A DNA stretch of 64,000 nt, from NCBI GenBank assembly GCA_900316845.1, contig ONEG01000009.1, positions 30,661-94,660 on the forward strand, written 5' to 3'. Origin of the DNA: an uncultured Bacteroidales bacterium. GTDB lineage: Bacteria; Bacteroidota; Bacteroidia; Bacteroidales; Paludibacteraceae. Positions within the stretch are counted from its first letter, which is position 1; every line of letters begins with the position of its first letter. Shown in pieces: positions 1 to 64,000 of the stretch. A model generated the notes under the pieces. It was not told the DNA's origin and ran no database searches. It saw nothing but the letters and a program-made list of their open reading frames with translations. The translations under genes and the position numbers were made by a program.

Positions 1-33
1 ATTGCTGATTACTGATTGCTGACTACTCATTGT
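1..33. repeat. Degenerate heptamer array
   Basis: Words TGATTAC, TGATTGC, TGACTAC, TCATTGT in a row; the last supplies the stop codon of the Cys4 lipoprotein. The array may continue beyond the window. Confidence 0.8.
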
Positions 34-518
34 CTTTGCGTGATGGTTAGTTTGTCCTCGGTGGCGATGATGTTCAGGGAACGAAGGGCTTCTTTGCTGA
101 TTCCTTTCTGCGGCATGGCGTACCCGCTGGCGATGTCGAAATGCTCGCCGCATCGCGGACAGATGGCGTAGATGCCGTCCATCTCGCAAGGGCTCTTATG
201 TCCATGCTCCGCGCAGTACGGACAAGCAAGGTCGAACGCCACGTATCCGGCAAGCGAGACATACGCCACGACTCCTCCGTAACCCCATGCGTCGGTCACG
301 GTCACGGGCTGCTTGAAGACGCCGTTCTCTTTGTAACCCTCTTGGTTGACGGTGATATAGGCGTTGGTGTTCTCCGGGAAGAAATCCGTGAAGAGCGTCT
401 TGGTGTTGATCACCACGCGCACGGGGTACGCCGGCACGGAAGATTGAAACGTCGAGCCCTCGCAGCCGCAAAGCATGAGTACTGCTATCAGTCCTATTAA
501 TTGCCCGTAACGCCGCAT
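27..518 (-). CDS. Lipoprotein with Rieske-like Cys4 domain
   Basis: 163 aa. The N-terminus is a lipoprotein signal with lipobox L16-C-G-C19, so the protein is probably anchored in a membrane facing the periplasm or surface. The C-terminal half has two Cys-Pro-x-Cys knuckles (C99/C102 and C120/C123) plus C111. Their spacing and the Phe-Asp-x-x-x-Gly that follows recall the Rieske fold, but the two histidines of a true [2Fe-2S] Rieske site are not in their usual places, so a zinc- or iron-bound Cys4 site is more likely. Last gene of the minus-strand dut operon; its start lies 22 bp inside the upstream FKBP gene, suggesting translational coupling. The function is unknown. The stop codon lies in a heptamer repeat. 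Confidence 0.8.
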   Translation of the reverse strand: MRRYGQLIGLIAVLMLCGCEGSTFQSSVPAYPVRVVINTKTLFTDFFPENTNAYITVNQEGYKENGVFKQPVTVTDAWGYGGVVAYVSLAGYVAFDLACPYCAEHGHKSPCEMDGIYAICPRCGEHFDIASGYAMPQKGISKEALRSLNIIATEDKLTITQRQ

Positions 519-1045
519 ATATGTATCGTGTAGATGAGGGTGGAATAGGGAGGAATATATCCCTGGGTTCCTTCGGTACCAAATCCTTCGGCTGCGTTAT
601 AATCGTCGCTCTGGTACTTGGCGTAGTCGTAACCCAGATAAGCAGGGATGTAGAGTTCTATATCGCCCTGGTTATGAATCTTATGGCATCCTTCCTGAAA
701 GCCGGGGATGGTGTTGGCGAGTGCCAGCGTGACGTTGTTTCCTCCGTCCACCTGGTAGCCGTTGATGAGCTTGACGGTGTAGTCGCAGATGATGACACTG
801 TTCTTGTTAGGGCGAGCTTCTCCGTTGTCTTTTAAGGGGTCTGCTATGATCTTATATTGCAGGCCAGAAGAGGAGGTCTGTACGCCGGGTTGCGTCTTGT
901 TGGCGGTGAGCCATAGCTCGTTCTGCACCTTCCATTCCGTCCAGTTGTTGGTCTTGCAGGAGGGAGTCAGGAGTAAGGAGAAAGGAATAAGGACTAATAT
1001 GATTAGTCGAATCCAACTTGTCTTTATTCTTATTTTGCGATCCAT
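497..1045 (-). CDS. FKBP-type peptidyl-prolyl isomerase lipoprotein
   Basis: 182 aa. Lipoprotein signal with a hydrophobic stretch at residues 13-28 and lipidated Cys30 (L-T-P-S-C). Residues about 60-180 match the FKBP fold, with Gly-Leu-Gln-Tyr-Lys near the start, Ile-Pro-Gly-Phe-Gln in the middle and an Ile-Pro-Pro-Tyr-Ser-Thr-Leu-Ile near the end, as in other FKBPs that end I-P-x-x-x-x-L-x-F. It should help fold envelope proteins. It overlaps the EnvC-like gene upstream by 16 bp and the Cys4 lipoprotein downstream by 22 bp. Oddly, the signal-peptide core Leu-Val-Leu-Ile-Pro-Phe-Ser-Leu-Leu-Leu-Thr-Pro is encoded by a degenerate heptamer array at 964-998. Confidence 0.85.
   Translation of the reverse strand: MDRKIRIKTSWIRLIILVLIPFSLLLTPSCKTNNWTEWKVQNELWLTANKTQPGVQTSSSGLQYKIIADPLKDNGEARPNKNSVIICDYTVKLINGYQVDGGNNVTLALANTIPGFQEGCHKIHNQGDIELYIPAYLGYDYAKYQSDDYNAAEGFGTEGTQGYIPPYSTLIYTIHICGVTGN
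964..998. repeat. Degenerate heptamer array in FKBP signal peptide
   Basis: Plus-strand words GAGTCAG, GAGTAAG, GAGAAAG, GAATAAG, GACTAAT. Read on the minus strand they encode the hydrophobic core of the FKBP lipoprotein signal. Confidence 0.85.
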
Positions 1046-2217
1046 AATTCGGGGTTTTGAATGTTCTTATCTTTGTAAATCTGGAAATACAGTTCGGTCT
1101 TCTGGTCCTGCTCGGGGTCTGTGAAGATGGTGCCGATCGCTTGTTTGGTATCGACCTTATCGCCTTGTTTGACGGACAGCTTGGAGAGGTTGGAATATAC
1201 CGTTCGGTAGTTACCGTGTTGCACGATCACGGCGTATGTACCGCCGACCATGAAACAACTGGTCACCTCACCTTTATACACTGCGCGAGCTTTGGTGCCG
1301 GCTGTCGTCTGCAGGTAAATACCTTTGTTATCCATCGTCACCTGCGAGTACACGGGGTGTTGCTGCTTGCCGAAATGTCCGCTGATCATACCTTTCTCCA
1401 CGGGCCATGGCAGCCGCCCTTTGTTGGCTTCGAAGCCGCCGGCGATGAGTTGTTGCTCTTTGGTGAGAGTGGTCTTGGATGCTTTCTCCGTCTGCTTGCG
1501 CACGATGTCATCGATCTTGCGGTTGAGTTCGTCCACTTTCTTCTGTTTCTGCTTGATCTGCTTGTTCAGGTCTTTCTCTTTGGACTTGAGTTGCGAGAGC
1601 ATGTTCTTCTGCTTGCGCTCGTCCCGTTGCAGGTTCGCCTGCTCGCGTTTGCGGGAAGAGAGAGCAGCCTGTTTGTCGGCTTTGTTGGTCTCCAGGAGTT
1701 CGTTCTGGGTATCTATCTCTGCTTGTGTGTTCTCAATGCGGCGCACTTGTTCCTGGCGGAAGTGTGCAAACTCCTGCAGGTATCGTGTGCGGCGTGCGAG
1801 CTGCTGAAAACTGTCGCTCGCAAGCAGAAACAACAAGGGCGATTGTTGCATCCGGGCATAATGGCTCTGCTTCACCATTTGCGCGTAGTCGCCTTTGTAG
1901 CGCTCCAAGACCACCTGTAACGAGTCGCGCGTATTGCTCAGCCGCGTCATCTCGCGGTTCAGCGCCGTGATCTCGTTGTCCAGCGTGTGGATGAGTTTCT
2001 TCTGGGTCTTGATATTCTGGTTCAGAAGCTGCAGTTTGTTCATCGTCGCGGACTCATCTTTCTTCGTCTGCTTGAGCATCTTGTTGGTCTGCTCGATCTC
2101 TGCCTGCAGTTTCTTTTGTTTCTTCTGCAACTCCTTCACGCTCTCGCCCCATGCCGGCACGAGAAGACATGCGCTCAGAACAAGCGTTAATATGTATTTA
2201 TAGGAACTTCGAAACAT
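1030..2217 (-). CDS. EnvC-like murein hydrolase activator
   Basis: 395 aa. Signal peptide (about 1-24), then a long Lys/Gln/Glu-rich coiled coil (about 25-250), then a LytM/M23 domain (about 270-390). The four metal ligands of an active M23 enzyme appear to be lost: where active enzymes have His-x-x-x-Asp this protein has Asn-Lys-Gly-Ile-Tyr, and the terminal His-Leu-His motif reads Glu-Leu-Tyr (near residue 375). It is therefore more likely an activator of an amidase for septum splitting than a peptidase, like EnvC or NlpD. It overlaps its neighbours on both sides within the dut operon. The order dut, TPR, DUF4292, EnvC-like is one I recognise from other Bacteroidales. Confidence 0.9.
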   Translation of the reverse strand: MFRSSYKYILTLVLSACLLVPAWGESVKELQKKQKKLQAEIEQTNKMLKQTKKDESATMNKLQLLNQNIKTQKKLIHTLDNEITALNREMTRLSNTRDSLQVVLERYKGDYAQMVKQSHYARMQQSPLLFLLASDSFQQLARRTRYLQEFAHFRQEQVRRIENTQAEIDTQNELLETNKADKQAALSSRKREQANLQRDERKQKNMLSQLKSKEKDLNKQIKQKQKKVDELNRKIDDIVRKQTEKASKTTLTKEQQLIAGGFEANKGRLPWPVEKGMISGHFGKQQHPVYSQVTMDNKGIYLQTTAGTKARAVYKGEVTSCFMVGGTYAVIVQHGNYRTVYSNLSKLSVKQGDKVDTKQAIGTIFTDPEQDQKTELYFQIYKDKNIQNPELWIAK

Positions 2218-2752
2218 CTATCTCTGTGTATTTGGTCAGCCTTTGGTTCGTCATCTTCACCGGCACATCGATCTTCCGCGGCGGATAGTCAAGGATGAGT
2301 TCTATCTGCTTCTTTCCGAACGTATAGACAAGCCGTGCTTTCTTGTCTCCCGTGGGTAGTTCAGCCGTGCATATCTGCTGGAGAATGTCCCAATTGAGGG
2401 ATGGCGTCAACTGTTTGTTGAGGTCTGCAAACGTACCTCTGGCGTAGCGGCCGTGCAGTTTGTCGATAGCGATGATCTCCGTCGGCGTAGCTTCTACGCG
2501 CATCATCTCCATGCCGAACATCGGCGTGACGGAGATGACGATCATCGAGTCGAGTACGGTCTGCATCGTCACGGCGGAGGAGAGTTTGTCTTCGTCCGTC
2601 AAGACGGTCGCTTGGGCGCCTTGTATGAGGCAGGTATGCCACGTCGGTACTACCGGTTCGGGTTCGACCGGTTGCACCGCTTTCTTCTTCGCTCCGCATC
2701 CGCAGAGCAGAAGAGCACTACTTAATACTATGAATATGCTTTTGTACTTCAT
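2198..2752 (-). CDS. DUF4292 lipoprotein
   Basis: 184 aa. Lipobox L16-C-G-C19. The body fits DUF4292, a Bacteroidetes family with an LolA/LolB-like half-barrel; such proteins may handle lipids or lipoproteins in the envelope, but no role is proven. The sequence shows short beta-rich stretches and no catalytic motif. It overlaps the TPR gene upstream by 35 bp and the EnvC-like gene downstream by 20 bp, so the set is a tight operon. Family assignment is from overall pattern and neighbourhood rather than a single motif. Confidence 0.8.
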   Translation of the reverse strand: MKYKSIFIVLSSALLLCGCGAKKKAVQPVEPEPVVPTWHTCLIQGAQATVLTDEDKLSSAVTMQTVLDSMIVISVTPMFGMEMMRVEATPTEIIAIDKLHGRYARGTFADLNKQLTPSLNWDILQQICTAELPTGDKKARLVYTFGKKQIELILDYPPRKIDVPVKMTNQRLTKYTEIDVSKFL

Positions 2753-5182: not shown

Positions 5183-5261
5183 TAAAAAATGAAGACAAAA
5201 AGTATATATACTATGTATATATAGTAAAAGAAGCCAAAATGACAAAATAGGGGTTTCATCC

Positions 5262-5305
5262 TATGGTGATCCTATGGTCATCTTATGGTGATCCTATGGT
5301 GAGAG
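5262..5305. repeat. 11-mer array, intergenic
   Basis: TATGGTGATCC, TATGGTCATCT, TATGGTGATCC, TATGGTGAGAG. Confidence 0.9.
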
Positions 5306-5443: not shown

Positions 5444-8400
5444 ATGGAATCATTGATTGATATACGGCGGCCGGTGACGGTCTGCAGGGCGTCGGCGGGA
5501 ACGGGAAAGACGTACACCTTAGCGGCGTATTATGTGGGGTTATTGCTTTCGGGCGAGGACTACCGCTCGATCCTTGCGATCACCTTTACCAACAAGGCGA
5601 CGGCGGAGATGAGTGAGCGTATCATCGGCTATCTGCATGAGATCGCCAAAGGCGGGGCCGAAGGTGCGGCGTCCGGCGGAGCGAAAGGTGTGGTGTCAGG
5701 CGGGGCGAAGGACTTCCTCAGCTACGCGCGGAAATTCATGATCCGCGATCAGGGTGCGCCGGACGAGGTGCTCTGCCGGCGTGCGGGAGAGTGCTTCGAG
5801 AAGATGCTGCTGGACTACGACAATGTGCAGATCCAGACGATCGACTCGTTCCTGCAGACCCTCTTGAGCGGTCTGGCAGGGGTGTTGAAGATGAGTGCGG
5901 GTTTGAGTACGGAGCTGGATATCGACCACGTGATCCGCACGGCGGTGGAGCAACTGCTGACGACCGACATGACGGCGTCGGACCGGACGATCATCGAAGA
6001 TTATATGCGTCTGAAGTTGGATCAGGAGAGCCAGTGGGACGTACGAGAGAGTTTGTGCGGCATGGCGAAAGAGCTGTACAACGAGTCCGTGCAGATGTTG
6101 GACGAAGAGGGGCTGATTTGTTTTGACGGTCCGTCGATTGTCCGCCGTCGCAAGGCGATTGAGGAGCAATGGAAGACGGATAAGGACTTGGCGAAACTGA
6201 AGGAGATTCTGCATCAATGCGAGCCCAAGGCCGATACCTATAACCGCTATACGAAAGCCGCTTATGAGCGCTTGGTCCGGTCGGTTGAGGCACCGGACAA
6301 AGTGACGGCGAAAGACCGTTTCCGCGGCGTGAGCGAGAAATACTGCTGCGACGAGTTGATGGGGCAGGCGACGGCGATTGCAGAGCCTCTGGGAAGAAAG
6401 TACAACACCCTGTCGCTGACCATCCGGTTCAGCAGAGACATGGAGCTGATGAGTTCGTTGCAGCACCTCATCCAACGCAACCTCTCGGAGGCTAACTGCG
6501 CCTTGCTGGCACGGACGGCAGGGACGCTGAGTAAGGCGCTTCGGGACGGTGATGCGGAGTTCATCCTCGAGAAAGCCGGTATCCGCTACCACCACGTGCT
6601 GATGGATGAGTTTCAGGACACCAGCCAACTGCAGTGGAGCGTCATCCGGCGGCTACTGATGGACGTTCTTGCCGGCGCCGGCAACACTCTCCTCATCGTG
6701 GGCGATATCAAGCAGTCCATCTATCGGTGGCGAAACGGCGATTGGCATATTATGGAGGGGCTAACTAATGATGGATTGAGCCGCTCGCAAGGCGAGCTAA
6801 ATGATGGATTGATAAATGAGAAGTTTACTTCGCTCACGCGGAATTTCAGGAGTAGCGAAGAGGTGGTGCGGTTCAATCTGTCGCTCTTCGACCATATAGT
6901 TAAAGAGTGGGACAGTACGTTGGCGGCGAAGATCTACGGCGAAGGGTACGAAGAAGGCAAGTTGGCGGAGTTTTACCAGGCGAAGAAGAAAGGCGGCTAC
7001 GTGCGCTTCCACGCCATCCCAAACGGCAAGCCGGCGGACTTGGCGATGGAGATGTTCGAGCAGATGGAGGAGCTGCTGAGCCGCGGTGTGAGAGCCGAAG
7101 AGATGATGGTGCTCGTTCGCGAGAAGAAAGAGGCGATGCGGGTGACGGAGATGCACGCGGATTTGGACGAGGCGCAGTTCCCGCACCTGAGCAGTGTGAA
7201 GATCGTCTCGGCGGACAGTTTTCTCTTGGAGGCCTCGACGGATGTGCAGCTGGTCATTGCGGGGTTGAAGAGTCTGACGTCCGGCGGCGTGGAAGAGCGG
7301 TATATAGAGATGATGACCGGTCGGCCGGAGTTGCTCAAGGCGCTGAAGGAGCGGCTGAACGCCGACACGCCTTTGTACGAAGCGGTGAGCGAGACCATCG
7401 CTATCCTCCTGACGGACGAGAAAGGGCAGTACCACGGTTCGCAGACGGCGTACCTGAATGCCCTCTTAGATCGTACTCGTGCGTACGTAAGCGCGTACGG
7501 TAGTAATATAAAGGAGTTCCTCAAATACTGGGACGACACAATGCACGCGAAACCCATCCCTGCCTCGTCCACCAACGCCATCCGCATCCTGACGGTTCAT
7601 GCCAGCAAGGGCCTGCAGTCGCAGACCTTGTTCGTGCCGTTCTGTACGTGGACCAAAGAAGCCGGGCGGCATCAACCGAAGATCTGGTGTAAGGCGGACG
7701 GAGAGAAAGATTTTGTGCCCATCCAGGACGGCACGGAGATGGAGCTGTCGAACTACGCGCCGTACCGCGAGGAGGAGCACCTGAACATGCGGATCGATAA
7801 CCTGAATATGCTGTACGTGGCGCTCACGAGGGCAGAGGACAACCTCTTTGTCTCCACCTCGTACCCGGTTAATAAAGACGGCAAGAAAGGTGCCTGCAAC
7901 CACGTGGGGCAGTATATTTTGGATTACGTCAAGGCCGATGAATATGAGGCTGGAAGTGTGATAGTCAAGAGTCAAGAGTCAGGAGCCAAGAGCCAAGAGG
8001 TAATTGAGGAAGCAGAACTGTGGGCGGATAGCGGACAAGTGCGGTTCGTGCAGTCGCAGGAAGGTGCGATGTACACGGCGTACGGCGATGAGTCGTACCG
8101 CAGAACGGCGAAGATGGAGGAGGGCACGTTGTGTCACGACATTTTTGCACATATCCGCAAAGCGGATGAGTTAGACGCGGTGCTGCGGGATTTTGAGACA
8201 CGCGGTCTAATCGCTTCGGATGAACAACGGGAGAAGCTCCGCGGCTTGATCTCTTCGGCATGGAAAGGCAACGACGAGATGCGGGATTGGTTCACCGCTC
8301 CGTGGGAACTAAGGCTCGAGGAGGCGATCTATATCGACCGGCGCGAGTTGCGTCCCGACCGCGTGATGATCAACCCCGAGACGAAAGAAGCCGTGGTGCT

Positions 8401-8539
8401 GGATTATAAGTTCGGCGGATGGGAGAAGCAATATGTCCACCAGGTGCAGGAATACATGGAGGCACTCCGACGCATGGGCTACAGCCCGGTGCGCGGATAC
8501 CTGTGGTTCGCGAAGGAAAACAAGTTGGTTAGGGTTTAG
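5444..8539 (+). CDS. AddA-like UvrD/Rep helicase-nuclease
   Basis: 1031 aa from this ATG. A longer frame from TTG 5378 exists, but that TTG lies between the promoter elements at 5369-5400, so the start must be downstream. Motifs: Walker A Ala-Ser-Ala-Gly-Thr-Gly-Lys-Thr (16-23), Phe-Thr-Asn-Lys-Ala-Thr-Ala-Glu-Met, Walker B Asp-Glu-Phe-Gln-Asp-Thr (about 387), Gly-Asp-Ile-Lys-Gln-Ser-Ile-Tyr-Arg-Trp-Arg (about 419), Val-His-Ala-Ser-Lys-Gly-Leu-Gln (about 716), Tyr-Val-Ala-Leu-Thr-Arg-Ala (about 790) and a RecB-type nuclease Leu-Asp-Tyr-Lys (about 986). With the next gene it should process double-strand breaks for recombination. Three repeat-coded insertions are present (5651-5713, 6762-6820, 7963-7997). 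Confidence 0.93.
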   Translation: MESLIDIRRPVTVCRASAGTGKTYTLAAYYVGLLLSGEDYRSILAITFTNKATAEMSERIIGYLHEIAKGGAEGAASGGAKGVVSGGAKDFLSYARKFMIRDQGAPDEVLCRRAGECFEKMLLDYDNVQIQTIDSFLQTLLSGLAGVLKMSAGLSTELDIDHVIRTAVEQLLTTDMTASDRTIIEDYMRLKLDQESQWDVRESLCGMAKELYNESVQMLDEEGLICFDGPSIVRRRKAIEEQWKTDKDLAKLKEILHQCEPKADTYNRYTKAAYERLVRSVEAPDKVTAKDRFRGVSEKYCCDELMGQATAIAEPLGRKYNTLSLTIRFSRDMELMSSLQHLIQRNLSEANCALLARTAGTLSKALRDGDAEFILEKAGIRYHHVLMDEFQDTSQLQWSVIRRLLMDVLAGAGNTLLIVGDIKQSIYRWRNGDWHIMEGLTNDGLSRSQGELNDGLINEKFTSLTRNFRSSEEVVRFNLSLFDHIVKEWDSTLAAKIYGEGYEEGKLAEFYQAKKKGGYVRFHAIPNGKPADLAMEMFEQMEELLSRGVRAEEMMVLVREKKEAMRVTEMHADLDEAQFPHLSSVKIVSADSFLLEASTDVQLVIAGLKSLTSGGVEERYIEMMTGRPELLKALKERLNADTPLYEAVSETIAILLTDEKGQYHGSQTAYLNALLDRTRAYVSAYGSNIKEFLKYWDDTMHAKPIPASSTNAIRILTVHASKGLQSQTLFVPFCTWTKEAGRHQPKIWCKADGEKDFVPIQDGTEMELSNYAPYREEEHLNMRIDNLNMLYVALTRAEDNLFVSTSYPVNKDGKKGACNHVGQYILDYVKADEYEAGSVIVKSQESGAKSQEVIEEAELWADSGQVRFVQSQEGAMYTAYGDESYRRTAKMEEGTLCHDIFAHIRKADELDAVLRDFETRGLIASDEQREKLRGLISSAWKGNDEMRDWFTAPWELRLEEAIYIDRRELRPDRVMINPETKEAVVLDYKFGGWEKQYVHQVQEYMEALRRMGYSPVRGYLWFAKENKLVRV
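5651..5713. repeat. 24-bp repeat in AddA-like gene
   Basis: Two and a half units coding Gly-Gly-Ala-Glu/Lys-Gly-x-x-Ser; in frame, between helicase motifs I and Ia/II. Confidence 0.75.
6762..6820. repeat. Repeat with internal hairpin in AddA-like gene
   Basis: AATGATGGATTGA occurs twice around GCTCGCAAGGCGAGC, a perfect hairpin. Encodes Asn-Asp-Gly-Leu twice. Confidence 0.75.
7963..7997. repeat. Heptamer array in AddA-like gene
   Basis: AGTCAAG, AGTCAAG, AGTCAGG, AGCCAAG, AGCCAAG in a linker before the nuclease domain. Confidence 0.85.
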
Positions 8540-8555
8540 GATTTAGGGTTTATGG
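8528..8555. repeat. Heptamer array at addA/addB-like junction
   Basis: GTTAGGG, TTTAGGA, TTTAGGG, TTTATGG; contains the stop of the first gene and the start codon of the second. Confidence 0.8.
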
Positions 8556-11380
8556 AGAGTTTTTTGGAACAAACAGCGCGGGAGATCATCTCGCAGATCG
8601 AGTGGAGCAGGTTGAGCCGCACGACCTTAGTACTGCCGTCGCATCGTGCGGGGGTGGTGCTGAAAGATGCGTTGCTGCGGTTGCAGAAAGAGAGCCATGC
8701 ACCGGCAGTATGGGCGCCGCAAGTGAGAACCCTGACGCAGTTGCAGGATGAGTTGAGTCCGCTCTACGCCGAGGATGAGTTATTCACGATCATCCGCCTC
8801 TATAAACACTATCGTGCCTTGATGCACGATGACGACCCGATGCCCCTGGACGTCTTCTATAACTGGGGTCGCCAGATGCTGGCGGATTTCACGAACGTCG
8901 ATGCGTCGATGGGAGCGAGCGAGGTGCCGAACTTCTTTGAGAACACCATCGCCGCGCATGAGTTGGAGCGGTGGAAGTTAGACGAGGAGGTGGAGGAACG
9001 GCTTCGGGCGCTGATGGGTACGAGGACGGACGCGGCGGCAGACTCCGTACGGGCGGCATACGAACGGCTCTGGGATCATCTGTACGAGTTGTATAAGGCG
9101 TTACGGGCAGAGATGTTAGAGGAGCAGAAAGGCTACGCGGGACTGAGACAACGGGCGGTCATCGAGCGATGGGAGGAAGAGAGTGTCCAAAACCAAATAA
9201 AGGATAGGACCTATATCTTCGTGGGCTTTAATTACCTGCTGCCGGTGGAGCGCGAGCTGATGACGCTGCTGAAGGACAAAGGCCAGGCGTTGTTCTTCTG
9301 GGACTACGTCCCGCATTTCCAAACCAACCGCAAGGCCTTCGCTTTTGCAGAGAAGAACGCGGGGGTGTTAGACCGCAGTGCTGACAGAGTACAGACCGCT
9401 TCGCCGACAGACCGCAGCAGAGCTGCTGACAGATTTCCGAAGGAGGTGACAGTGCTGTCGTGTGTGTCACGGGAAGCGCAGGCGCAGTACGTTCACCGAT
9501 GGTTGCAGGAGAACTACACGGCGAAGGGCCGGAAGGTCGGTGTCGTCATCTGCGACGAGTCGATGTTGGAGCCGGTTATTTATGCCCTGCCGGCAATCAC
9601 CTTGCCGGGCGAGAAAGAACCCGAACCGGTGAATATCACCAAAGGTTTTCCGCTGCGCAACACCGCCGTTTACGCCCGTGCCTTAGCGTGGCTGAACGAA
9701 GAGACGAAAGGTCGTGCCGAAGAACTCGCTCAGCCGGAGACGATCGACCGACTGATAGAGGCGTTGTTTGTCAAAGACGAGAGTCAAGAGCCGAGAGACG
9801 AGAGTCAAGAGCAACCGCTTCATTGGCAGGAGTTGCTGGCACTGGAGGCGGACTATCAGATACGTAAGATCCTCAACCAGCTGCGACTGCTCGTCACCGG
9901 TGGGCTGGACGGCGTGCCGTTCACGATGAAGCTGCTGCGGTTATTGTTCCGGCGTATGGTGGAGTCCGTGACGATGCCTTTCCACGGCGAGCCCGTGACG
10001 GATATCCAGATCATGGGTGTACTCGAGACGCGTATGTTGGACTTCGACCGACTGCTGCTGCTGAATGTCGAGGAAGGTGTCATCCCGCAAAAACAGGCGG
10101 ATATCAGTTTTATTCCTTTCTACCTGCGCAAGACCTACCACATGCAGACCTCCGATGAGAAGGCGACTATTTATGCCTATAACTTCTTCCGTCTCTTGAG
10201 CCGCGCCGGGCATGCGACGCTCTTGTACGCAGCGGCAGACGCCGTGGAAGGCGGCAAAGGCATGTCGCGGTTTATCATGCAGATGATCTACTCGCCGGAG
10301 TTTAAGGTGACGCGCGGTGCGATCCAGGAGAGCAGCGTGATCGAGAGCCACGAAGCAGAGATCAACCTCACTCCGCGTTCGATCTTCTCCACCTTGCATC
10401 TCAACGACCGCGGAGAGTTATGCCGGGAGGACGGAAAGCGTTACCGCCTCTCGCCTTCGGCGCTGAATACCTATATCTCTTGTCCCAGGTCGTTCTACCT
10501 GCAGTATATAGAGGGCTTGCGGCCGAAAGAAGAAGAGGATGTGCTCTTTGAACCCGCCACGATGGGTTCGTTCGTGCACCACGCGATGGAGTATATCTAT
10601 ACCCATTTCTTAGGTTGCGATAACAAGACTCCGGTGACCGTCACGCCCGAAGCGATTGAAGCCATCCGGGCGGATGAGACGAAGCTGCATGAGGCGCTGA
10701 TGGCGGCATATGAGGCGATGAACAAGCTCTACGCAGAAGATAACCCCGACGAGCCGAACCATTACATCCCCGACCACCACGTGGGGGAGAACGTGATCAT
10801 CGAGGGCTATATATCGAATATCCTGACGCGCGACCGCGAGGATGCGAAGAAAGGGCTGCAGATCTACCTCTTAGAGCAAGAGCGTACGTTCCCTGTCGCC
10901 GTAGAAGGGCTGGGCGAGATACAAACCGGCGGCACCATCGACCGGCTGGATATAGTCGGCGAAGAAGGCGCAGAGACCCTGCGCGTGGTGGACTATAAAT
11001 CCGGCAGCTATAACGACACGACGCACGCGAAGAAGATGTCGTCTTCATGGGAAGAGATCATGGAGGATGCAGACAAGGCGTACGTACGCCAGACGATGAT
11101 CTACAGCCACGCCGTCATGGCGCATGACAAGACCGGTCTGCCCATCGAACCGAACCTCTTCTTCTGCCGCCGGTCGCTGACGGAGATAGAGACGACGATC
11201 GACGTGGAGAACGAGACCGTACAGGACTATAGAACCGTGCAGAAGTCCTTCTACGAAGCCCTGCAGACGAAGATCAAAGAAGTAATCACCACCACGGATT
11301 TCCCGCAATGCGAGGAGGACCAATGCCCTGCGTTCTGTCCTTTCTTTGCCTTGTGCGGAAGACAACCCAATGAATATTAA
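8552..11380 (+). CDS. AddB-like PD-(D/E)XK nuclease
   Basis: 942 aa. Partner of the upstream helicase-nuclease. A conserved Ser-Pro-Ser-Ala-Leu-Asn-Thr-Tyr-Ile-Ser-Cys-Pro (about 634-645) opens the nuclease domain and Val-Val-Asp-Tyr-Lys-Ser-Gly (about 812-818) is the catalytic core. Three further cysteines in Cys-Pro-Ala-Phe-Cys-Pro-Phe-Phe-Ala-Leu-Cys at the C-terminus (about 924-934) pair with the early Cys to bind a [4Fe-4S] cluster, as in AddB. I see no N-terminal Walker A; the corresponding site reads Leu-Pro-Ser-His-Arg-Ala-Gly. The start codon sits in a heptamer array that also holds the addA stop. Two repeat-coded loops occur (9370-9433, 9777-9811). Confidence 0.92.
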   Translation: MESFLEQTAREIISQIEWSRLSRTTLVLPSHRAGVVLKDALLRLQKESHAPAVWAPQVRTLTQLQDELSPLYAEDELFTIIRLYKHYRALMHDDDPMPLDVFYNWGRQMLADFTNVDASMGASEVPNFFENTIAAHELERWKLDEEVEERLRALMGTRTDAAADSVRAAYERLWDHLYELYKALRAEMLEEQKGYAGLRQRAVIERWEEESVQNQIKDRTYIFVGFNYLLPVERELMTLLKDKGQALFFWDYVPHFQTNRKAFAFAEKNAGVLDRSADRVQTASPTDRSRAADRFPKEVTVLSCVSREAQAQYVHRWLQENYTAKGRKVGVVICDESMLEPVIYALPAITLPGEKEPEPVNITKGFPLRNTAVYARALAWLNEETKGRAEELAQPETIDRLIEALFVKDESQEPRDESQEQPLHWQELLALEADYQIRKILNQLRLLVTGGLDGVPFTMKLLRLLFRRMVESVTMPFHGEPVTDIQIMGVLETRMLDFDRLLLLNVEEGVIPQKQADISFIPFYLRKTYHMQTSDEKATIYAYNFFRLLSRAGHATLLYAAADAVEGGKGMSRFIMQMIYSPEFKVTRGAIQESSVIESHEAEINLTPRSIFSTLHLNDRGELCREDGKRYRLSPSALNTYISCPRSFYLQYIEGLRPKEEEDVLFEPATMGSFVHHAMEYIYTHFLGCDNKTPVTVTPEAIEAIRADETKLHEALMAAYEAMNKLYAEDNPDEPNHYIPDHHVGENVIIEGYISNILTRDREDAKKGLQIYLLEQERTFPVAVEGLGEIQTGGTIDRLDIVGEEGAETLRVVDYKSGSYNDTTHAKKMSSSWEEIMEDADKAYVRQTMIYSHAVMAHDKTGLPIEPNLFFCRRSLTEIETTIDVENETVQDYRTVQKSFYEALQTKIKEVITTTDFPQCEEDQCPAFCPFFALCGRQPNEY
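9370..9433. repeat. AGACCGC/GACAGA repeat in AddB-like gene
   Basis: AGACCGC at 9370, 9393 and 9409, GACAGA at 9383, 9406 and 9428; ACCGCTTCGC is shared with dapA and, inverted, with the 16-mer of other loci. Confidence 0.75.
9777..9811. repeat. Heptamer array in AddB-like gene
   Basis: ACGAGAG, TCAAGAG, CCGAGAG, ACGAGAG, TCAAGAG; encodes Asp-Glu-Ser-Gln-Glu twice. Confidence 0.85.
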
Positions 11381-20261: not shown

Positions 20262-20270
20262 TTTTTAATT
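20243..20270. repeat. Heptamer array at lipoate ligase stop
   Basis: TTAATTT, TGAATTT, TTAATTT, TTAATTA; the second and third contain the stop codon. Confidence 0.7.
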
Positions 20271-25802: not shown

Positions 25803-25805
25803 GGC

Positions 25806-25850
25806 ATTTATTCATTTATCATTTGGTCGTTTACCATCTGGTCATTGACC
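25806..25850. repeat. Alternating 8/7-bp array at mltG end
   Basis: ATTTATTC, ATTTATC, ATTTGGTC, GTTTACC, ATCTGGTC, ATTGACC; codes the mltG tail and stop. Confidence 0.75.
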
Positions 25851-32090: not shown

Positions 32091-32105
32091 TTTTGTGCAT
32101 TTAGT

Positions 32106-44969: not shown

Positions 44970-44976
44970 ACTGGTA

Positions 44977-44998
44977 AAGTAAGGGTTAAGTAAGGGTT
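44977..44998. repeat. 11-mer direct repeat
   Basis: AAGTAAGGGTT twice, between pssA and the EndoI start. Confidence 0.85.
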
Positions 44999-50185: not shown

Positions 50186-50266
50186 CTTTCGACTTTCGAC
50201 TTTGAGCGAAGCGGTCTTTCGACTTTCGACTTTGAGCGAAGCGGTCTTTCTACTTTCTACTTTCTA
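50186..50266. repeat. Composite 30-bp tandem repeat before infC
   Basis: CTTTCGA twice then the 16-mer CTTTGAGCGAAGCGGT; exact copies at 50186-50215 and 50216-50245, then CTTTCTA three times. Confidence 0.95.
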
Positions 50267-50281
50267 CTAAAGGCTAAAACT

Positions 50282-50839: not shown

Positions 50840-50869
50840 AACTAATATAGGTCAAAAATAAGTCCAATA

Positions 50870-50913
50870 CCGACGGTCGAACGACGGTCAACCGACGGTC
50901 AACCGACAGTCAA
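50870..50913. repeat. 11-mer array between infC and rpmI
   Basis: CCGACGGTCGA, ACGACGGTCAA, CCGACGGTCAA, CCGACAGTCAA. Confidence 0.9.
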
Positions 50914-51706: not shown

Positions 51707-52646
51707 ATATAATAGCCGATATCCGGCGGTTTAGTTCTGCGCTTGCCGGAACAAGCGGTAGCCTCAAATAATTATCAATCAATCCCTTTTGCGCCAAGAC
51801 GGCTTTGATGCCGACAGGATTGCCTTCGGCGAAAAGGAGTTTGATTATCTCTGCGTATTTCGCTTGCAAGGCTGCATCTTTGTCATGCACGATATGCCAG
51901 AAGTCCTCCGGGAAGGCGTTCGACGCTACAGAGATCAGGCCTGCCGCGCCTGCTTCCATCAGTTCGCACGCAATACCATCATCGCCGGAGATGACTAATA
52001 GACCGGCTTCGCTGACAGACCGCTTCGCTGTTAGACCGATTAACCTTTTTATTTGCTCGAGGTTGCCGGAGGCTTCTTTGATGCCGATAATCTTATCTGG
52101 GTGCGCCTCATAAATACGCATGACGGTCTCCGGAAGCAGGTTCACACCCGTGCGCCCGGGAACATTATATAATACTACAGGAATTGGACTCGCCTCTGCT
52201 ACGGCGCAGAAATGTTGGTATAGCCCTTCCTGGTTGGGTTTGTTGTAATACGGGCAGACAGAAAGGATAGCGGCATAGTTCTCCGATAGTTCGTCACGCA
52301 TGGTGGTCAACTCTGCACACACCGCCGCAGTATTGTTTCCGCCAACTCCCAATACCAATGGTATCGGAACGGGTCTGATCGCGGCGCAGATGTCGGGGTC
52401 ATCCATCGCCGGGTAATGACGTTTAAAAGCGGCAAGTTTGACATGTTCCGCTATAAACTGCCGTACTTCTTTCTTCTCCTCTGCGGTCAGGGTGGCGGCT
52501 TCGCCGGTTGTACCGAGTACAACGAGATAATCTACGAAGCCGGTTAGTTGGGTGTCTAACAGGCGAGCGAGTGCTTCGTAATCCACCTTGCCATTTGCAT
52601 CAAACGGCGTGATAAGCGCTGTTCCTAAACCTTTTAACTTTTCCAT
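51705..52646 (-). CDS. dapA: 4-hydroxy-tetrahydrodipicolinate synthase
   Basis: 313 aa from ATG 52646 (an ATG at 52661 would overlap the upstream stop by 8 bp). It condenses pyruvate and aspartate semialdehyde in lysine and diaminopimelate synthesis. Schiff-base Lys (about 190) in Ile-Gly-Ile-Lys-Glu-Ala-Ser-Gly-Asn, Tyr (about 160) in Leu-Tyr-Asn-Val-Pro-Gly-Arg-Thr-Gly, and Gly-Thr-Thr-Gly-Glu-Ala near residue 45. The stretch Ile-Gly-Leu-Thr-Ala-Lys-Arg-Ser-Val-Ser-Glu-Ala-Gly (about 203-215) comes from the ACCGCTTCGCT repeat at 52002-52034. Confidence 0.95.
   Translation of the reverse strand: MEKLKGLGTALITPFDANGKVDYEALARLLDTQLTGFVDYLVVLGTTGEAATLTAEEKKEVRQFIAEHVKLAAFKRHYPAMDDPDICAAIRPVPIPLVLGVGGNNTAAVCAELTTMRDELSENYAAILSVCPYYNKPNQEGLYQHFCAVAEASPIPVVLYNVPGRTGVNLLPETVMRIYEAHPDKIIGIKEASGNLEQIKRLIGLTAKRSVSEAGLLVISGDDGIACELMEAGAAGLISVASNAFPEDFWHIVHDKDAALQAKYAEIIKLLFAEGNPVGIKAVLAQKGLIDNYLRLPLVPASAELNRRISAII
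52002..52034. repeat. ACCGCTTCGCT repeat in dapA
   Basis: ACCGGCTTCGCT then ACCGCTTCGCT, separated by GACAG; the latter is the inverse of AGCGAAGCGGT at 32125 and 50205. Confidence 0.8.
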
Positions 52647-58087: not shown

Positions 58088-58221
58088 CAGCGGAAATCAA
58101 TGTACAATTAACAATGTACAATTCACAAGGCGTTCTAAAAGTCCCGTACAAACCTTAAAGTCCGTACGTATTCTAAGAGCCCTTTGTAAATTGTGAATTA
58201 TAAATTTTAAATTAATATAGT

Positions 58222-59962: not shown

Positions 59963-62900
59963 ATGGCAAAAGAGAAAAAATTTATGACCATGGATGGTAA
60001 CGCAGCTGCGGCGCATGTGGCTTACATGTTCACCGAGGTAGCTGCTATCTATCCTATCACGCCGTCGTCTCCGATGGCGGAGAACGTGGACGAGTGGGCT
60101 GCTGCAGGTCGCAAGAACCTGTTCGGCGAGACCGTACTCGTGCAGGAGATGCAGTCTGAGGCCGGTGCAGCAGGTGCCGTTCACGGTTCGCTGAACGCAG
60201 GTGCCCTCACCACCACTTTCACGGCTTCGCAGGGTCTGCTCCTCATGATCCCGAACATGTACAAGATCGCCGGTGAGTTGATCCCGACCGTCTTCCATGT
60301 ATCGGCTCGTACGCTCGCTTCGCACGTGCTCTGTATCTTCGGTGACCACCAGGATGTCATGGCTTGCCGTCAAACCGGTTTCGCTATGCTCGCTGAGGCT
60401 TCCGTACAAGAGGTGATGGACCTCGCAGGTGTGGCTCACCTCGCTACTATCAAGAGCCGCGTACCATTTTTGAACTTCTTCGACGGCTTCCGTACGTCCC
60501 ACGAGTATCAGAAGGTGGAAGCGATGGATATGGAGGACCTCCGTCCATTAGTAGACTACAAGGCACTCCAGGAGTTCCGTGAGCGTGCTCTGAGCCCGAT
60601 GCGTCCTGAGATGCGCGGTATGGCGGAAAACCCCGATGTTTTCTTCGCTCACCGCGAGAGCTGCAACCGTTACTATGACGGCGTAGCGGACATCGTTTCC
60701 GACTACATGAAGGAGATCAGCAAGATCACCGGTCGCGAGTACCGTCCGTTCAATTACTACGGCGCTGCTGACGCAGAGAACATCATCATCTGTATGGGTT
60801 CGGCTTGCGAGGCTATCCGCGAAGTGATTGATTATGAGGCTGCTAATGGTAACAAGAAACTCGGTCTCATCAACGTACACCTCTATCGTCCGTTCAGCCT
60901 CAAGTACTTGCAAGAGGCGCTGCCGAAGACCGCTAAACGTATCTGCGTGCTCGATCGTACCAAAGAGCCGGGCGCTAACGGCGAACCGCTCTACCTCGAT
61001 GTAAAAGACGCACTCGACGAACTCGGTCTGAAGGACCTGCTCGTTGTAGGCGGTCGTTACGGTCTGGGTTCCAACGATACCACTCCGGCACAGATGCTCG
61101 CAGTATTCGAGAACCTCGCTCTGCCGCAACCGAAGAACCACTTCACCGTGGGTATCAACGATGACCTCACCTTCACTTCTCTGCCTGTTGGCGAGGAGAT
61201 CGCGATGGGTGACGCATCGCTCTTCCAGGCTAAGTTCTACGGCCTCGGTGCAGACGGTACCGTCGGTGCAAACAAGAACTCGGTGAAGATCATCGGTGAC
61301 ACCACCGACAAATACTGCCAGGCTTACTTCTCTTACGATAGTAAGAAATCCGGTGGATTCACCTGCTCGCACCTCCGTTTCGGCGACGAGCCTATCCACT
61401 CGACCTACCTCGTTACCACGCCTAATTTCGTGGCTTGCCACGTTCAGGCTTACCTCCACATGTACGATGTGACCCGCGGTCTGCAGGACGGCGGTACGTT
61501 CCTGTTGAACACCATCTGGGAGGGTGACGAGCTGGTTAAGAACCTGCCGAACAAAGTGAAGAAATACTTCGCTGACCATAAGATTAAAGTTTATTACATC
61601 AACGCTACGAAGATCGCACAGGAGATCGGTCTGGGCAACCGTACCAACACCATCCTCCAGTCTGCTTTCTTCCGTATCACCGCAGTCATCCCTGTTGACA
61701 AAGCCGTTGAGGAGATGAAGCACTTCATCGTGAAGTCTTACGGCAAGAAGGGTGAGGATGTCGTTAATAAGAACTACGCTGCTGTTGATCGCGGTGGTGA
61801 GTACCAAGAGCTCGCTATCGATCCCGCATGGTCGAAACTGCCTGCTGATCCCGCTAAGGACTACGGAGATGAGCCGGAGTTCATCACCAAAGTCGTTCGT
61901 CCGATCAACGGTCAGGACGGTGACCTCCTCCCGGTTAGCTCGTTCAAGGGCATCGAGGACGGTACATGGCCTGCTGGAACTGCTAAGTTCGAGAAACGTG
62001 GTGTGTCTGCCTTCGTTCCGGTTTGGACCGCTGACAACTGTATCGAGTGTAACAAGTGTGCGTATGTTTGTCCTCACGCTTGTATCCGTCCGTTCGTCCT
62101 CGACGAGAAAGAGCTTGCAGGCCTCAACGGCGCTGCTACCCGCGAGATGAAGGCTCCGGCTGCCATGAAGGGTATGCACTTCCGCATGCAGGTTGGCGTT
62201 ATGGACTGCCTCGGTTGCGGTAACTGCGTCGATGTATGTCCGGGCAATCCGAAGACAGGCAAGGCACTCGCTATGGTTGATCTCGAGAGCCAACTCGGCG
62301 AGGCTGCTAACTGGGATTACTGCGTAGAGCACGTAGCTACCAAGCAACACCTCGTTGAACTCAACAACGTCAAGAACAGCCAGTTCGCAACTCCGCTCTT
62401 CGAGTTCTCCGGCGCTTGCTCCGGTTGCGGTGAGACTCCGTATCTGAAGCTCATCAGCCAACTCGTCGGCGACCGCGAGATCATCGCTAACGCTACCGGT
62501 TGTACCTCTATCTACTCCGGTTCGGTTCCTTCTACTCCTTATACCAAGAACGAGAAGGGTCACGGTCCCGCTTGGTCCAACTCCCTCTTCGAGGACTTCT
62601 GCGAGTACGGTCTCGGTATGCAGATCGCACACCGCAAACTGCGTGAGCGCCTTGCTGCTCTGATGCAGAAGGGTCTCGAGTGCGCTGACTGCTCCGACGA
62701 ACTCAAAGCGATGTTCAAAGAGTGGCTGGAGAACCAGAACTCTGCAGAGGTTACCAACCGCCTCTATGAGCCGATGGTAGCTGCTATGGAGAAATGCGGT
62801 TGCGACACCTGCAAGGCTATCCTCGCTGAGAAAGACCATATCGTTAAACGCAGCCAGTGGATCGTCGGCGGTGACGGTGCTTCCTATGATATCGGTTACG

Positions 62901-63505
62901 GCGGACTCGACCACGTCATCGCTTCCGGCGAAGATGTCAACATCCTCGTGCTCGATACCGAGGTGTACTCCAACACCGGTGGTCAGGCATCCAAAGCAAC
63001 GCCGCTTGGCGCTATCGCTAAGTTCGCTGCTATGGGTAAGCGCGTTCGTAAGAAAGACCTCGGTATGATTGCTACCACCTACGGTTATGTCTATGTAGCA
63101 CAGATCGCTATGGGCGCTGACCAGGCTCAGACCCTCAAGGCTATCCGCGAGGCAGAGGCTTATCCCGGACCGTCGCTCGTCATCGCTTACGCTCCGTGTA
63201 TCAACCACGGTCTGAAAGCAGGTATGGGCAAGTCGCAGGCTGAGGAGGCTAAGGCTGTTGAGTGCGGTTACTGGCACCTCTGGCGTTACAACCCGCAGCT
63301 CGAGGCAGAAGGCAAGAACCCGTTCTCGCTCGACTCCAAAGAGCCGCAGTGGGATAAGTTCCAAGACTACCTGAAGGGTGAGGTTCGCTTCGCTTCTGTA
63401 GCAAAACAGTTCCCGAAGGAGGCAGACGAACTCTTCGCTGCCGCTCAGGAGAACGCTCAGTGGCGTTACAAATCCTACCTCCGCATGCTGGGCACAGCTT
63501 GGTAA
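59963..63505 (+). CDS. nifJ: Pyruvate:ferredoxin oxidoreductase
   Basis: 1180 aa, single-chain form. It converts pyruvate and CoA to acetyl-CoA and CO2 while reducing ferredoxin, a core step of anaerobic fermentation. Seen: Tyr-Pro-Ile-Thr-Pro-Ser-Ser-Pro-Met-Ala-Glu (about 31-41), domain III with CoA-binding, ferredoxin clusters Cys-Ile-Glu-Cys-Asn-Lys-Cys (about 692) and Cys-Leu-Gly-Cys-Gly-Asn-Cys (about 749), the proximal cluster Cys-Ser-Gly-Cys-Gly-Glu-Thr (about 818) and TPP motif Gly-Asp-Gly-Ala-Ser-Tyr-Asp-Ile-Gly (about 970). No repeat insertion. The 94-bp gap before it is mainly an octamer repeat, and no standard promoter is evident, so it may be read from the ATPase gene. Confidence 0.98.
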   Translation: MAKEKKFMTMDGNAAAAHVAYMFTEVAAIYPITPSSPMAENVDEWAAAGRKNLFGETVLVQEMQSEAGAAGAVHGSLNAGALTTTFTASQGLLLMIPNMYKIAGELIPTVFHVSARTLASHVLCIFGDHQDVMACRQTGFAMLAEASVQEVMDLAGVAHLATIKSRVPFLNFFDGFRTSHEYQKVEAMDMEDLRPLVDYKALQEFRERALSPMRPEMRGMAENPDVFFAHRESCNRYYDGVADIVSDYMKEISKITGREYRPFNYYGAADAENIIICMGSACEAIREVIDYEAANGNKKLGLINVHLYRPFSLKYLQEALPKTAKRICVLDRTKEPGANGEPLYLDVKDALDELGLKDLLVVGGRYGLGSNDTTPAQMLAVFENLALPQPKNHFTVGINDDLTFTSLPVGEEIAMGDASLFQAKFYGLGADGTVGANKNSVKIIGDTTDKYCQAYFSYDSKKSGGFTCSHLRFGDEPIHSTYLVTTPNFVACHVQAYLHMYDVTRGLQDGGTFLLNTIWEGDELVKNLPNKVKKYFADHKIKVYYINATKIAQEIGLGNRTNTILQSAFFRITAVIPVDKAVEEMKHFIVKSYGKKGEDVVNKNYAAVDRGGEYQELAIDPAWSKLPADPAKDYGDEPEFITKVVRPINGQDGDLLPVSSFKGIEDGTWPAGTAKFEKRGVSAFVPVWTADNCIECNKCAYVCPHACIRPFVLDEKELAGLNGAATREMKAPAAMKGMHFRMQVGVMDCLGCGNCVDVCPGNPKTGKALAMVDLESQLGEAANWDYCVEHVATKQHLVELNNVKNSQFATPLFEFSGACSGCGETPYLKLISQLVGDREIIANATGCTSIYSGSVPSTPYTKNEKGHGPAWSNSLFEDFCEYGLGMQIAHRKLRERLAALMQKGLECADCSDELKAMFKEWLENQNSAEVTNRLYEPMVAAMEKCGCDTCKAILAEKDHIVKRSQWIVGGDGASYDIGYGGLDHVIASGEDVNILVLDTEVYSNTGGQASKATPLGAIAKFAAMGKRVRKKDLGMIATTYGYVYVAQIAMGADQAQTLKAIREAEAYPGPSLVIAYAPCINHGLKAGMGKSQAEEAKAVECGYWHLWRYNPQLEAEGKNPFSLDSKEPQWDKFQDYLKGEVRFASVAKQFPKEADELFAAAQENAQWRYKSYLRMLGTAW

Positions 63506-63559
63506 GTCGAGCGGCTCGACACCCGGATATCCATGCGGGTGTGCGTGCGTAATAATAAG

Positions 63560-63592
63560 GAGAGGCATCCATTCGGATGCCTCTCGTTTGTT
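63560..63592 (+). terminator. Terminator of nifJ
   Basis: GAGAGGCATCC-ATTC-GGATGCCTCTC, a perfect 11-bp stem, followed by GTTTGTTT. A smaller hairpin GTCGA-GCGGC-TCGAC lies at 63506-63520. Confidence 0.85.
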
Positions 63593-63838: not shown

Positions 63839-63840
63839 AC

Positions 63841-63872
63841 GATTTAACAGTTTAACGATTTAACAGTTTAAC
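63841..63872. repeat. Octamer array, window end
   Basis: GATTTAAC, AGTTTAAC, GATTTAAC, AGTTTAAC between the partial gene and the small lipoprotein. Confidence 0.9.
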
Positions 63873-63873
63873 G

Positions 63874-64000
63874 TTAAGAGTGGGCCTGATCCCACTCCGC
63901 GCCGCAGACGCGCCAGTACCACTGTTTCATGGTCTTTGCGCCGTTCGGCTCGTTCTTCTGCGCGATGAAGGTCTGCTGGTCGGTCGTGATCTTCGACAGG
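63874..64000 (-). CDS. Partial gene, C-terminal end
   Basis: Minus-strand frame open to the window edge, 41 residues ending Trp-Asp-Gln-Ala-His-Ser with stop TAA at 63874-63876. Rich in Lys, Gln and Trp (Lys-Gln-Trp-Tyr-Trp-Arg-Val-Cys). The 5' part is outside the window. Product not recognised. Coding is supported by length without stop and by adjacency to the small lipoprotein. Confidence 0.55.
   Translation of the reverse strand, partial: LSKITTDQQTFIAQKNEPNGAKTMKQWYWRVCGAEWDQAHS

Follow-up and report, generated by a model that had tools for sequence, protein, structure and literature searches.

The 64,000-nucleotide stretch analysed here (the window; positions 30,661 to 94,660 of contig ONEG01000009.1, or G000:C25:30661-94660) lies in a 2.34-Mb draft genome of an uncultured member of the Paludibacteraceae (G000, hereafter the own genome; 37 contigs, 96.6% complete). 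Between and within its genes, which include mtaB, pdxA, alaS, mutS, mltG, dapA, ligA and nifJ, the window carries numerous short arrays of degenerate tandem words, most often heptamers. The same words recur at unlinked loci, in proportions that differ from genome to genome, and many arrays are replaced at the orthologous site of a close relative, with net length changes that preserve the reading frame where the array lies inside a gene.

Analysis of the window with Tandem Repeats Finder (TRF) returned 77 rows at a score of at least 30 before overlap removal. For non-overlapping arrays with periods of 5-12, 46 reached this score, against 8.5 per shuffle in a null of 20 shuffles made in 1-kb blocks with dinucleotides kept; the corresponding values were 27 against 3.05 at a score of 35, 18 against 0.6 at a score of at least 40 and 8 against 0 at a score of 50, with period 7 the most frequent. 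A detector independent of TRF, which scores the sequence against a copy of itself offset by one period (match +1, mismatch -2), identified 33 arrays of period 6-16 at a score of at least 10. The initial annotation, which had reported many arrays of mostly 7-bp words on both strands, in gaps, at gene junctions and in open frames, is borne out by these results. The comparisons that it had proposed with shuffled sequence, other genomes and orthologous loci were run and are presented below; the arrays exceed chance and are not ubiquitous, and no refutation emerged.

Three genomes were sampled closely: the own genome (834 kb, or 834,660 bases, with 64% of the genome lying outside the sample), G035 from the same genus (400 kb) and G042 (442 kb), whose DNA is about 91% identical to that of the own genome. 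Among the loci compared, L010 belongs to G042, and L009 and L119 belong to G041; the genome of L009 is the most similar to the own genome in most aligned segments. The genomes compared are mostly metagenome drafts, used as assemblies without reads, and genic or non-genic status was assigned with a simple custom gene caller. The arrays of the window are as follows, with the strand given where one is assigned and the state of relatives where compared:

1-32: 7-mer array TGATTAC/TGATTGC/TGACTAC, truncated by the window edge
963-997: 7-mer array GGAGTAA
3531-3554: 7-mer array TAAGGAA
4081-4163: 10-mer array with about 8 units of the CCTAGGnnnn type; this family occurs elsewhere in the own genome and is absent from the 442-kb G042 sample
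5258-5302: 11-mer array ATCCTATGGTG, within a dispersed element of more than 100 bp found at three sampled loci
7963-7999, plus strand: 7-mer array AGTCAAG/AGCCAAG in the AddA-like open reading frame (ORF); L010 (G042) has the same array
8529-8552, plus strand: 7-mer array TTAGGGT where the AddA-like ORF meets the next ORF; L010 and L011 vary in copy number, L009 has other words
9778-9812, plus strand: 7-mer array AGAGTCA in ORF 8552-11380; L011 is 21 bases longer
12812-12857, minus strand: 7-mer array ATCCTGA in mtaB, at own residues about 220-239; L011 has a different word
13146-13179, minus strand: 7-mer array AGATTTG/AGACTTG in mtaB, between the UPF0004 and radical-SAM domains
14549-14582, plus strand: 9-mer array AATGGTGCA in pdxA; 18 bases shorter in L010 and L011
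17856-17893, plus strand: AAATGGT/ACATGG words, from the alaS stop codon to just before a likely start codon
19600-19635, plus strand: 8-mer array TCGATATA; L011 has AAATCCT words, L010 a short gap
20244-20270, plus strand: 7-mer array TTAATTT in an intergenic gap; L010 has the 15-mer AAATGACCAAATAGT, L011 AAATCAT
25805-25850, minus strand: 15-mer array CATTTGGTCATTTAC (the AAATGACCAAATG family in reverse), which overlaps the mltG 3' end
31040-31076, minus strand: 7-mer array CTCTTGG in a TonB-receptor-plug-domain gene; L119 (G041) has a shorter CTTTCGA array
32031-32070: 11-mer array GACCTTGCGCT
32100-32160: 7-mer arrays TTTACTC and TCTTTAC flanking a AGCGAAGCGGTC motif
32862-32902: 10-mer doublet and 7-mer array TCAACTA; G042 has an AAAGTCG-type array at the same place
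33090-33118, minus strand: weak 7-mer array GGTACTT in the CstA-like ORF; G041 is similar, G042 has unrelated sequence
35231-35276: 9-mer array TAGGACTCC; related and shorter in G042
44973-44998: 11-mer array GGTTAAGTAAG; absent in G042
50186-50268: 7-mer arrays CTTTCGA/CTTTCTA with AGCGAAGCGGT motifs; G042 has one extra (shortened) unit
50869-50913: 11-mer array CGACGGTCAAC; G042 has one unit fewer
52000-52038, minus strand: 16-mer array (GCTTCGCTGACAGACC) in dapA; G042 has CTCTTGA x4 at the same site
58098-58128: 14-mer array CAATGTACAATTAA
58184-58213: 7-mer array TTGTAAA
59879-59915: 8/16-mer array ATCGACAT; G042 has CTAGGATA-type words at the same site
63839-63873: 16-mer array ACGATTTAACAGTTTA

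The arrays previously placed in the AddA-like ORF, the next ORF, mtaB (two arrays), pdxA, the TonB-plug gene and dapA were all recovered. Those placed in mltG and the CstA-like ORF were not, in that no array lies wholly inside either at a detector score of 10: the array at 25805-25850 overlaps the end of mltG, and the CstA-like ORF holds the weak TRF array at 33090. Likewise, alaS, mutS, nifJ and ligA, listed as free of arrays, hold none at this detector score, but TRF reports one or two weak 9-mers in alaS, nifJ and ligA (none in mutS). A 1006-aa open frame runs antisense to nifJ (60548-63568, minus strand) and is probably a by-product of codon bias. Each of the three sampled genomes contains the AGCGAAGCGGTC motif repeatedly, amid arrays and in the DNA separating them, and also in the form of tandem 16-mer units; it looks like a dispersed motif in its own right, with instances in the window at 32124-32136, 50203-50246 and 52000-52038. 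Two loci with the ATCCTATGGTG element share about 92% identity along 124 bp, and a third has 50 identical bases (5258-5302; L132:527; L140:18271). Several other 11-mer arrays also extend past the array and may constitute a distinct class of element.

Beyond the window, periods in 464 kb of the own genome were led by 7, 11, 8 and 15 at a detector score of 12, with none in the shuffle, and tandem units of 5-11 nt exceed chance expectation in the shuffle comparisons. Fundamental periods peak at 7, 8 and 11, with 15 corresponding to 7+8, and codon multiples are not the peaks. Period 7 accounts for 225 of 555 arrays in the own, G042 and G035 samples. Across the window and 78 mtaB loci (80 fetched, two of them under 5 kb and dropped; 1.47 Mb), it accounts for 247 arrays at a TRF score of 35, whereas shuffled DNA yields 1. 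Of the 80 best-matching relatives of mtaB, 76 come from records titled Bacteroidales or Paludibacteraceae, many of them naming ruminant hosts; the remaining records are titled Paludibacter sp., Bacteroidia, Candidatus Colicola and Oscillospiraceae. The locus titled Oscillospiraceae (L018, JAFUBI010000272.1) encodes a Paludibacteraceae-type mtaB with 80% identity and the same array as L017, and probably represents a mislabelled bin.

The arrays are a lineage trait of uneven strength, which recurs in a few other genera. At a detector score of 12, their density is 33.1 per 100 kb in the own, G035 and G042 samples combined (shuffles, 0), 5.7 per 100 kb in other genera of the family (14 genomes, 384 kb), with none in seven of the 14 genomes, and 3.2 per 100 kb in other families of the phylum (12 genomes, 400 kb), for which shuffles yield 1.5. 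Two genomes from other genera of the family, G097 and G103, present 45 and 37 arrays per 100 kb, from just 20 and 10.8 kb; set against the seven empty genera, they should be useful for linking the trait to gene content. Density across mtaB loci also exceeds Poisson variation (mean 6.67, variance 17.3, index of dispersion 2.6 for 46 loci of at least 20 kb).

Arrays have a median length of about 32 bp, with words of 7, 8, 10, 11 or 15 bp, and heptamer arrays have a median of about 4.3 copies at the detection threshold. The non-genic heptamer excess over shuffles is about 20 at 2-2.5 copies, 50 at 2.5-3.3, 112 at 3.3-5.5 and 25 above, whereas for octamers and 11-mers it falls more regularly with copy number. 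An early impression of a strongly humped distribution was discarded, a better non-genic null giving a plateau and then a fall for heptamers, and a hump is therefore not used here as proof against slippage.

Each locus had initially been assigned a word family of its own. Recurrence at unlinked loci, far beyond that of letter-shuffled words, rules this out. In the own genome, 25 of 48 heptamers have their nearest neighbour at distance 0, against 4-6 in three letter-shuffled nulls, as do 10 of 21 octamers and 6 of 22 11-mers, against 0 in both cases. Across species, 27 heptamers appear in at least three loci, compared with 5-6 for letter-shuffled words, part of this excess being due to orthology. 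Families picked by eye include CCTAGGnnnn (10 bp), AAATGACCAAATGGT (15 bp), ATATCGnn and CCCCTAAT (8 bp), CGACGGTCAAC and ATCCTATGGTG (11 bp), and the heptamers AATTATC, AAAGTCG and AATCAGT.

Whole-genome counts over 41 genomes of the genus, own included, in which overlapping matches in one array are counted repeatedly, placed the CCTAGG triple in five genomes (36 matches in the own genome, the word being palindromic and both strands counting), the CGACGGTC 11-mer doublet in 20 (own 27, G009 29, G022 22, G035 20) and the 15-mer in 23 (own 28, G018 38, G009 31). The reversed pattern gave 0 matches in every one of them. Among the matches listed, the spacers of the CGACGGTC 11-mer are mostly GGC/GAC in G009 and mostly AAA/AAC/GAA in the own genome. 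Genome bias is also evident in the densities per Mb of the own, G042 and G035 samples, respectively, for the CCTAGG 10-mer (26.4, 0 and 0), the ATCGA 8-mer (22.8, 2.3 and 0) and AACGA (1.2, 18.1 and 0), the 15-mer being evenly spread (13.2, 11.3 and 10.0). The fraction of arrays with their word among 60 others is 0.38 within G035 and 0.13-0.22 between G035 and the own genome or G042; overlap between the own genome and G042 nearly equals the self-overlap of each (0.28-0.34), as expected because many of their arrays are orthologous. The genomes hence hold a limited, partly genome-specific and shared lexicon. Transition-biased variation, of the kind that might have signalled editing or RNA-template wobble, was not seen, the within-array transition/transversion ratio being 0.80 against 1.16 for intergenic non-array divergence, a figure to which array edges may add noise.

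The comparison of the own genome with G042 revealed turnover at orthologous sites. Both flanks of 49 of the 227 own-sample arrays are present in the G042 sample, the others being outside the fetched parts or unanchored. By automatic classification, 24 of these 49 sites keep the word, 14 hold a different array and 11 hold none. In the opposite direction, 62 of 157 arrays were anchored, with 27, 19 and 16 sites in the respective classes; many sites are counted in both directions, and in the second some loci occur twice through the overlap of L010 with other G042 stretches, so these counts are not additive. Flank identity averages 91-92%. Similarity between an array and its orthologous partner, pooled over both directions and with partner stretches under 12 bases scored as 0, is two-peaked: 45 of 103 comparisons fall below 0.4, like 90 of 93 random pairings, and 42 of 103 reach at least 0.7, a value that no random pairing attains.

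Copy-number changes are common, and several orthologous pairs differ by whole units, which slippage would explain. At other single sites word and period change together, abruptly and often completely. The mtaB site at 13146 in the window carries AGATTTG in the own genome, CTTTCTA in L009 and CTCTCGG in L010. At 8529 and 31040, the genome of L009 (G041) alone differs, and the own genome agrees with L010 and L011 (or with G042 and G043), which are more distant; by parsimony on pairwise identities rather than on a tree, the L009 state is best read as derived at both sites. Pairs with presence and absence include seeded growth at L188:8265 and patches with no obvious seed at L145:5214 and L188:16120, their polarity being mostly unset. 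Small GC-rich palindromes (GGCGTAGCC, GCACCTCCGGTGC, CTCGCCTTGCGAG) occupy spacers and one gene loop of the own genome where G042 has word arrays, at the sites orthologous to L177:12392, L177:15450 and L153:12871.

Array density is 100-180 per 100 kb outside genes and 11-19 inside, and 500 sampled arrays comprise 192 in genes, 105 at junctions and 203 intergenic. Period 7 leads inside genes as well (93 of 192), rather than 9 or 12. That words which do not keep frame nevertheless leave genes open, as pointed out by the initial annotation, has an ordinary answer, namely that inside genes selection retains net length changes divisible by three. Where the own genome differs in length from G042, the difference is so divisible at all 10 genic sites (10 of 10) and at 6 of 19 others; in the reverse comparison the figures are 15 of 15 and 7 of 24 (pairs with an empty partner set aside; the 25 genic comparisons correspond to 19 distinct sites). 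Word loops replaced, shortened or absent in a close relative were found in mtaB, pdxA, phosphatidylserine decarboxylase and the RsgA GTPase, and a second radical-SAM methylthiotransferase with a TRAM domain, MiaB-like by domain reading, also has such a loop. Among 61 usable mtaB orthologs (of 81, 20 being dropped for a stop in the matched stretch), arrays with a score of at least 8 lie at own residues 100-119, in the loop between the two Pfam domains, in 25 cases and with many different words; they lie at residues 220-239 in 20 species, and nine further bins have 1-4 species apiece. Array sequence is richer in A+T than the DNA around it, and its coding strand is enriched in A (AT skew 0.31 for genic arrays, 0.064 for the remaining genic DNA), a bias that selection for hydrophilic loops and A-rich leaders would explain.

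We tentatively favour the interpretation that the arrays are traces of a mutational process that is specific to the lineage and unusually active, and that combines slippage with short-patch copying between arrays, with selection as a filter. Such a process would lay down short tandem patches and later lengthen, shorten or wholly overwrite them. Patches would grow through replication slippage, and new words would arrive by short-patch copying from other arrays, for which our best guess is microhomology template switching via short shared strings; copying of this kind would spread a heritable lexicon through one genome. Selection would only filter: the changes that survive would sit in spacers and tolerant protein loops, keep the frame and mostly have an A-rich coding strand. 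Since the process ignores the reading frame, it is taken to be mutational, and since words are remembered across loci, sites seem not always to originate them on their own. What was directly observed is the enrichment of arrays, its limits by lineage, the sharing and genome bias of words, their replacement at orthologous sites and the frame filter; slippage and template switching would be the steps behind them. A stronger form of this interpretation, which we regard as possible but unlikely, is heritable word-writing, in which patches of about 30 bp from a genome-specific 7-15-bp lexicon would be continually written into permissive sites, in-frame enzyme loops included, overwriting earlier ones. 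Words would then behave as tiny selfish sequences, spreading between loci without transposase, reverse transcriptase or shared ends.

Evidence on copying comes from the longest exact match elsewhere of turned-over patches, with means of 17.8/17.6 bases in the genome that carries the patch, 16.4/15.9 in its sister and 15.5/14.5 in G035 (sets of 25 and 31 patches; uncorrected p of 0.14 and 0.037 relative to the sister and of 0.10 and 0.004 relative to G035). Exact non-periodic shared strings occur at 1.80 per 1000 pairs within the own genome against 1.27 and 1.07 between genomes, and are 1.7-4.1 times commoner within than between in the comparisons with G035. Long exact copying of whole patches is not supported by match lengths as a general rule, and holds for a few cases, such as a 34-base AATTATC patch and the ATCCTATGGTG element.

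Several observations weigh against a process that includes copying. Direct proof of copying is weak, within-genome matches being just slightly longer than those between genomes, and shared strings show a modest 1.3-1.4-fold excess within the own genome or G042 over that between them; the donors could lie in the unsampled part of the genome. The automatic classes overstate turnover somewhat: by eye, three sites classed as empty (window 14549, L184:1528 and L188:12053) are contractions of the same word, and L010:5619, classed as different, is a related AAATG-type array. All counted orthologous sites come from one genome pair, the lineage is represented by draft assemblies, used without reads, and the three genomes sampled in detail are close relatives. 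Some arrays, such as that at L188:8265, look grown from a local seed, and the copy-number distribution is compatible with slippage plus an instability threshold. Finally, the restriction of variation to a few columns, emphasized in the initial annotation, is present and modest (a mean of 2.48 variable columns per array against 3.16 expected, over 153 arrays), and the detector itself favours it.

The alternative that fares best, although we consider it doubtful, is that the arrays are ordinary long simple sequence repeats, generated at permissive sites by local slippage, point mutation and homogenisation, with the replicative polymerase favouring 7-bp units, and that shared words reflect descent or slip-prone sequence with no copying. 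Heptamers are reported to be the commonest long repeat class in most genomes and polymerase slippage has been suggested as their origin (Mrazek et al. 2007, as described in PMC4679880). Frequent copy-number changes, the locally seeded births and the modest within-genome excess of shared strings fit this explanation. It is harder to reconcile with 11- and 15-bp words that recur exactly at numerous unlinked loci, with abrupt switches of word and period at one site, and with a heptamer excess that plateaus without a steep fall, although an instability threshold could also give a plateau. Independent origin of the words of each locus, which slippage implies, if perhaps not by definition, was not what was found, words being shared across loci and genomes. 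The initial claim that simple slippage is insufficient thus stands in part: slippage may not be the whole story, and copying or seeding is possible, but pure local slippage stays a rival.

A second alternative, which we consider improbable, is that DNA- or RNA-binding proteins recognise the words and that selection maintains them in arrays, a role already proposed for the TAACTGA repeats found upstream of start codons. Array density is highest outside genes, some words, such as CCTAGG, have dyad symmetry, and some are oriented, the AAATG 15-mer family being in sense orientation in 20 of 25 gaps between co-directional genes and in 24 of 25 cases inside genes. This orientation, however, tracks coding-strand A-richness, which hydrophilic loops can explain; different words swap at the same site in close relatives, some of which are without whole word families, and arrays also occur in enzyme loops.

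No more probable is the insertion of preformed arrays by mobile elements, either miniature transposons or reverse-transcribed sequence. The palindromic elements of Rickettsia provide a precedent for in-frame insertion in genes, and some 11-mer families (ATCCTATGGTG and others) lie within longer dispersed elements. Nevertheless, 129 of the 202 arrays matching another sampled locus extend under 30 bp in all, and no consistent target-site duplication was seen by eye in the presence/absence alignments. At the search sensitivity used, RVT_1 had 0 matches in the word-rich G000, G042, G035, G009 and G022, and in G103 (mostly drafts), and reverse transcriptase was discarded as the writer; the domain is present in G015, G018 and G097. 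Y1/REP-type transposases do not fit consistently, matches in same-genus genomes being weak (bits 23-35), with none in G042 and G015. A plasmid origin of the 10-mer array found no match in 72,556 plasmid records (E 0.001, BLAST low-complexity filter on). Chance or base composition, ruled out by the nearly empty shuffles, and assembly artefact, which the predominance of metagenome drafts might favour, retain a negligible probability, given that identical arrays recur at orthologous sites of separate assemblies and are few in stretches of other genera.

Specific words characterize the STRR heptamers of heterocystous cyanobacteria. The initial annotation knew of no repeat class with these traits, a statement that does not hold, since heptamer tandem repeats are described in Beggiatoaceae, cyanobacteria, Xanthomonas and a few Bacteroidetes. 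Long simple sequence repeats, whose units span 5-11 nt and are most often heptamers (Mrazek et al. 2007, as summarised in PMC4679880 and PMC4692102), resemble the present arrays in unit size, in the predominance of heptamers, in exceeding chance and in their patchy distribution across lineages. As portrayed in those citing papers, they differ from the arrays reported here, which have degenerate units, many coexisting words, cross-locus sharing with genome bias and word exchange between close relatives.

TAACTGA direct repeats are described in Beggiatoaceae, cyanobacteria and five Bacteroidetes (PMC4679880). Paludibacter propionicigenes has two sets, and other heptamer assemblages accompany the repeats in some Bacteroidetes and cyanobacteria; horizontal spread is suspected in that paper and no mechanism seen. 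Like the present arrays, these are dispersed few-copy heptamer arrays, mostly intergenic and sometimes in ORFs. Unlike them, they consist of one word, related heptamers being rarely repeated in the Beggiatoaceae genome, whereas variants and unrelated words abound here. The TAACTGA doublet occurs once in the 834,660 bases of the own sample, and the TAACTGA trait of mostly lying forward just upstream of start codons compares here with 105 junction and 203 intergenic arrays, yet 192 of 500 in genes.

The GGGAATC/(GGGANTN)n heptamers of Xanthomonas and Nostoc, whose preference for four units is linked to G-quadruplexes in PMC4692102, share with the present arrays degenerate units with fixed and free columns, dispersal and about four units. 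Most words here are nevertheless without G tracts, CCCCTAA-type words excepted, and three G-rich doublets of the GGGAATC/GGGGAYT class were absent from the own-genome sample. In the P6b loop of the Nostoc tRNA-Leu intron, repeat motifs replace each other, several times independently (PMC4476775), so that one motif supplants another at one site, as observed here; that is a single RNA loop, whereas many sites genome-wide, protein loops included, are involved here. The palindromic elements of Rickettsia, about 150 bp long and inserted in frame in unrelated metabolic genes (PMC10969869), likewise place repeated DNA in frame within unrelated metabolic genes, but the present arrays are tandem words of about 30 bp, mostly without shared ends.

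Within the top listings of the open-licence literature, no paper was found on arrays in this group (Paludibacteraceae and tandem repeats), nor any that combines a lexicon of many words with replacement at fixed sites across the genome; as far as the literature found goes, the element-free dispersal of short tandem words is unexplained. Heptamer tandem repeats, dispersal with no known mechanism, degenerate units and single-site motif replacement are each in print elsewhere. Dozens of same-genus genomes present many words in different states, partly at the same sites, which could make the birth, spread and replacement of words datable and testable, and conserved enzymes with exchangeable word-built loops represent an unusual source of protein variation. 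What the present arrays add to the known heptamer class is a shared lexicon and site-faithful replacement.

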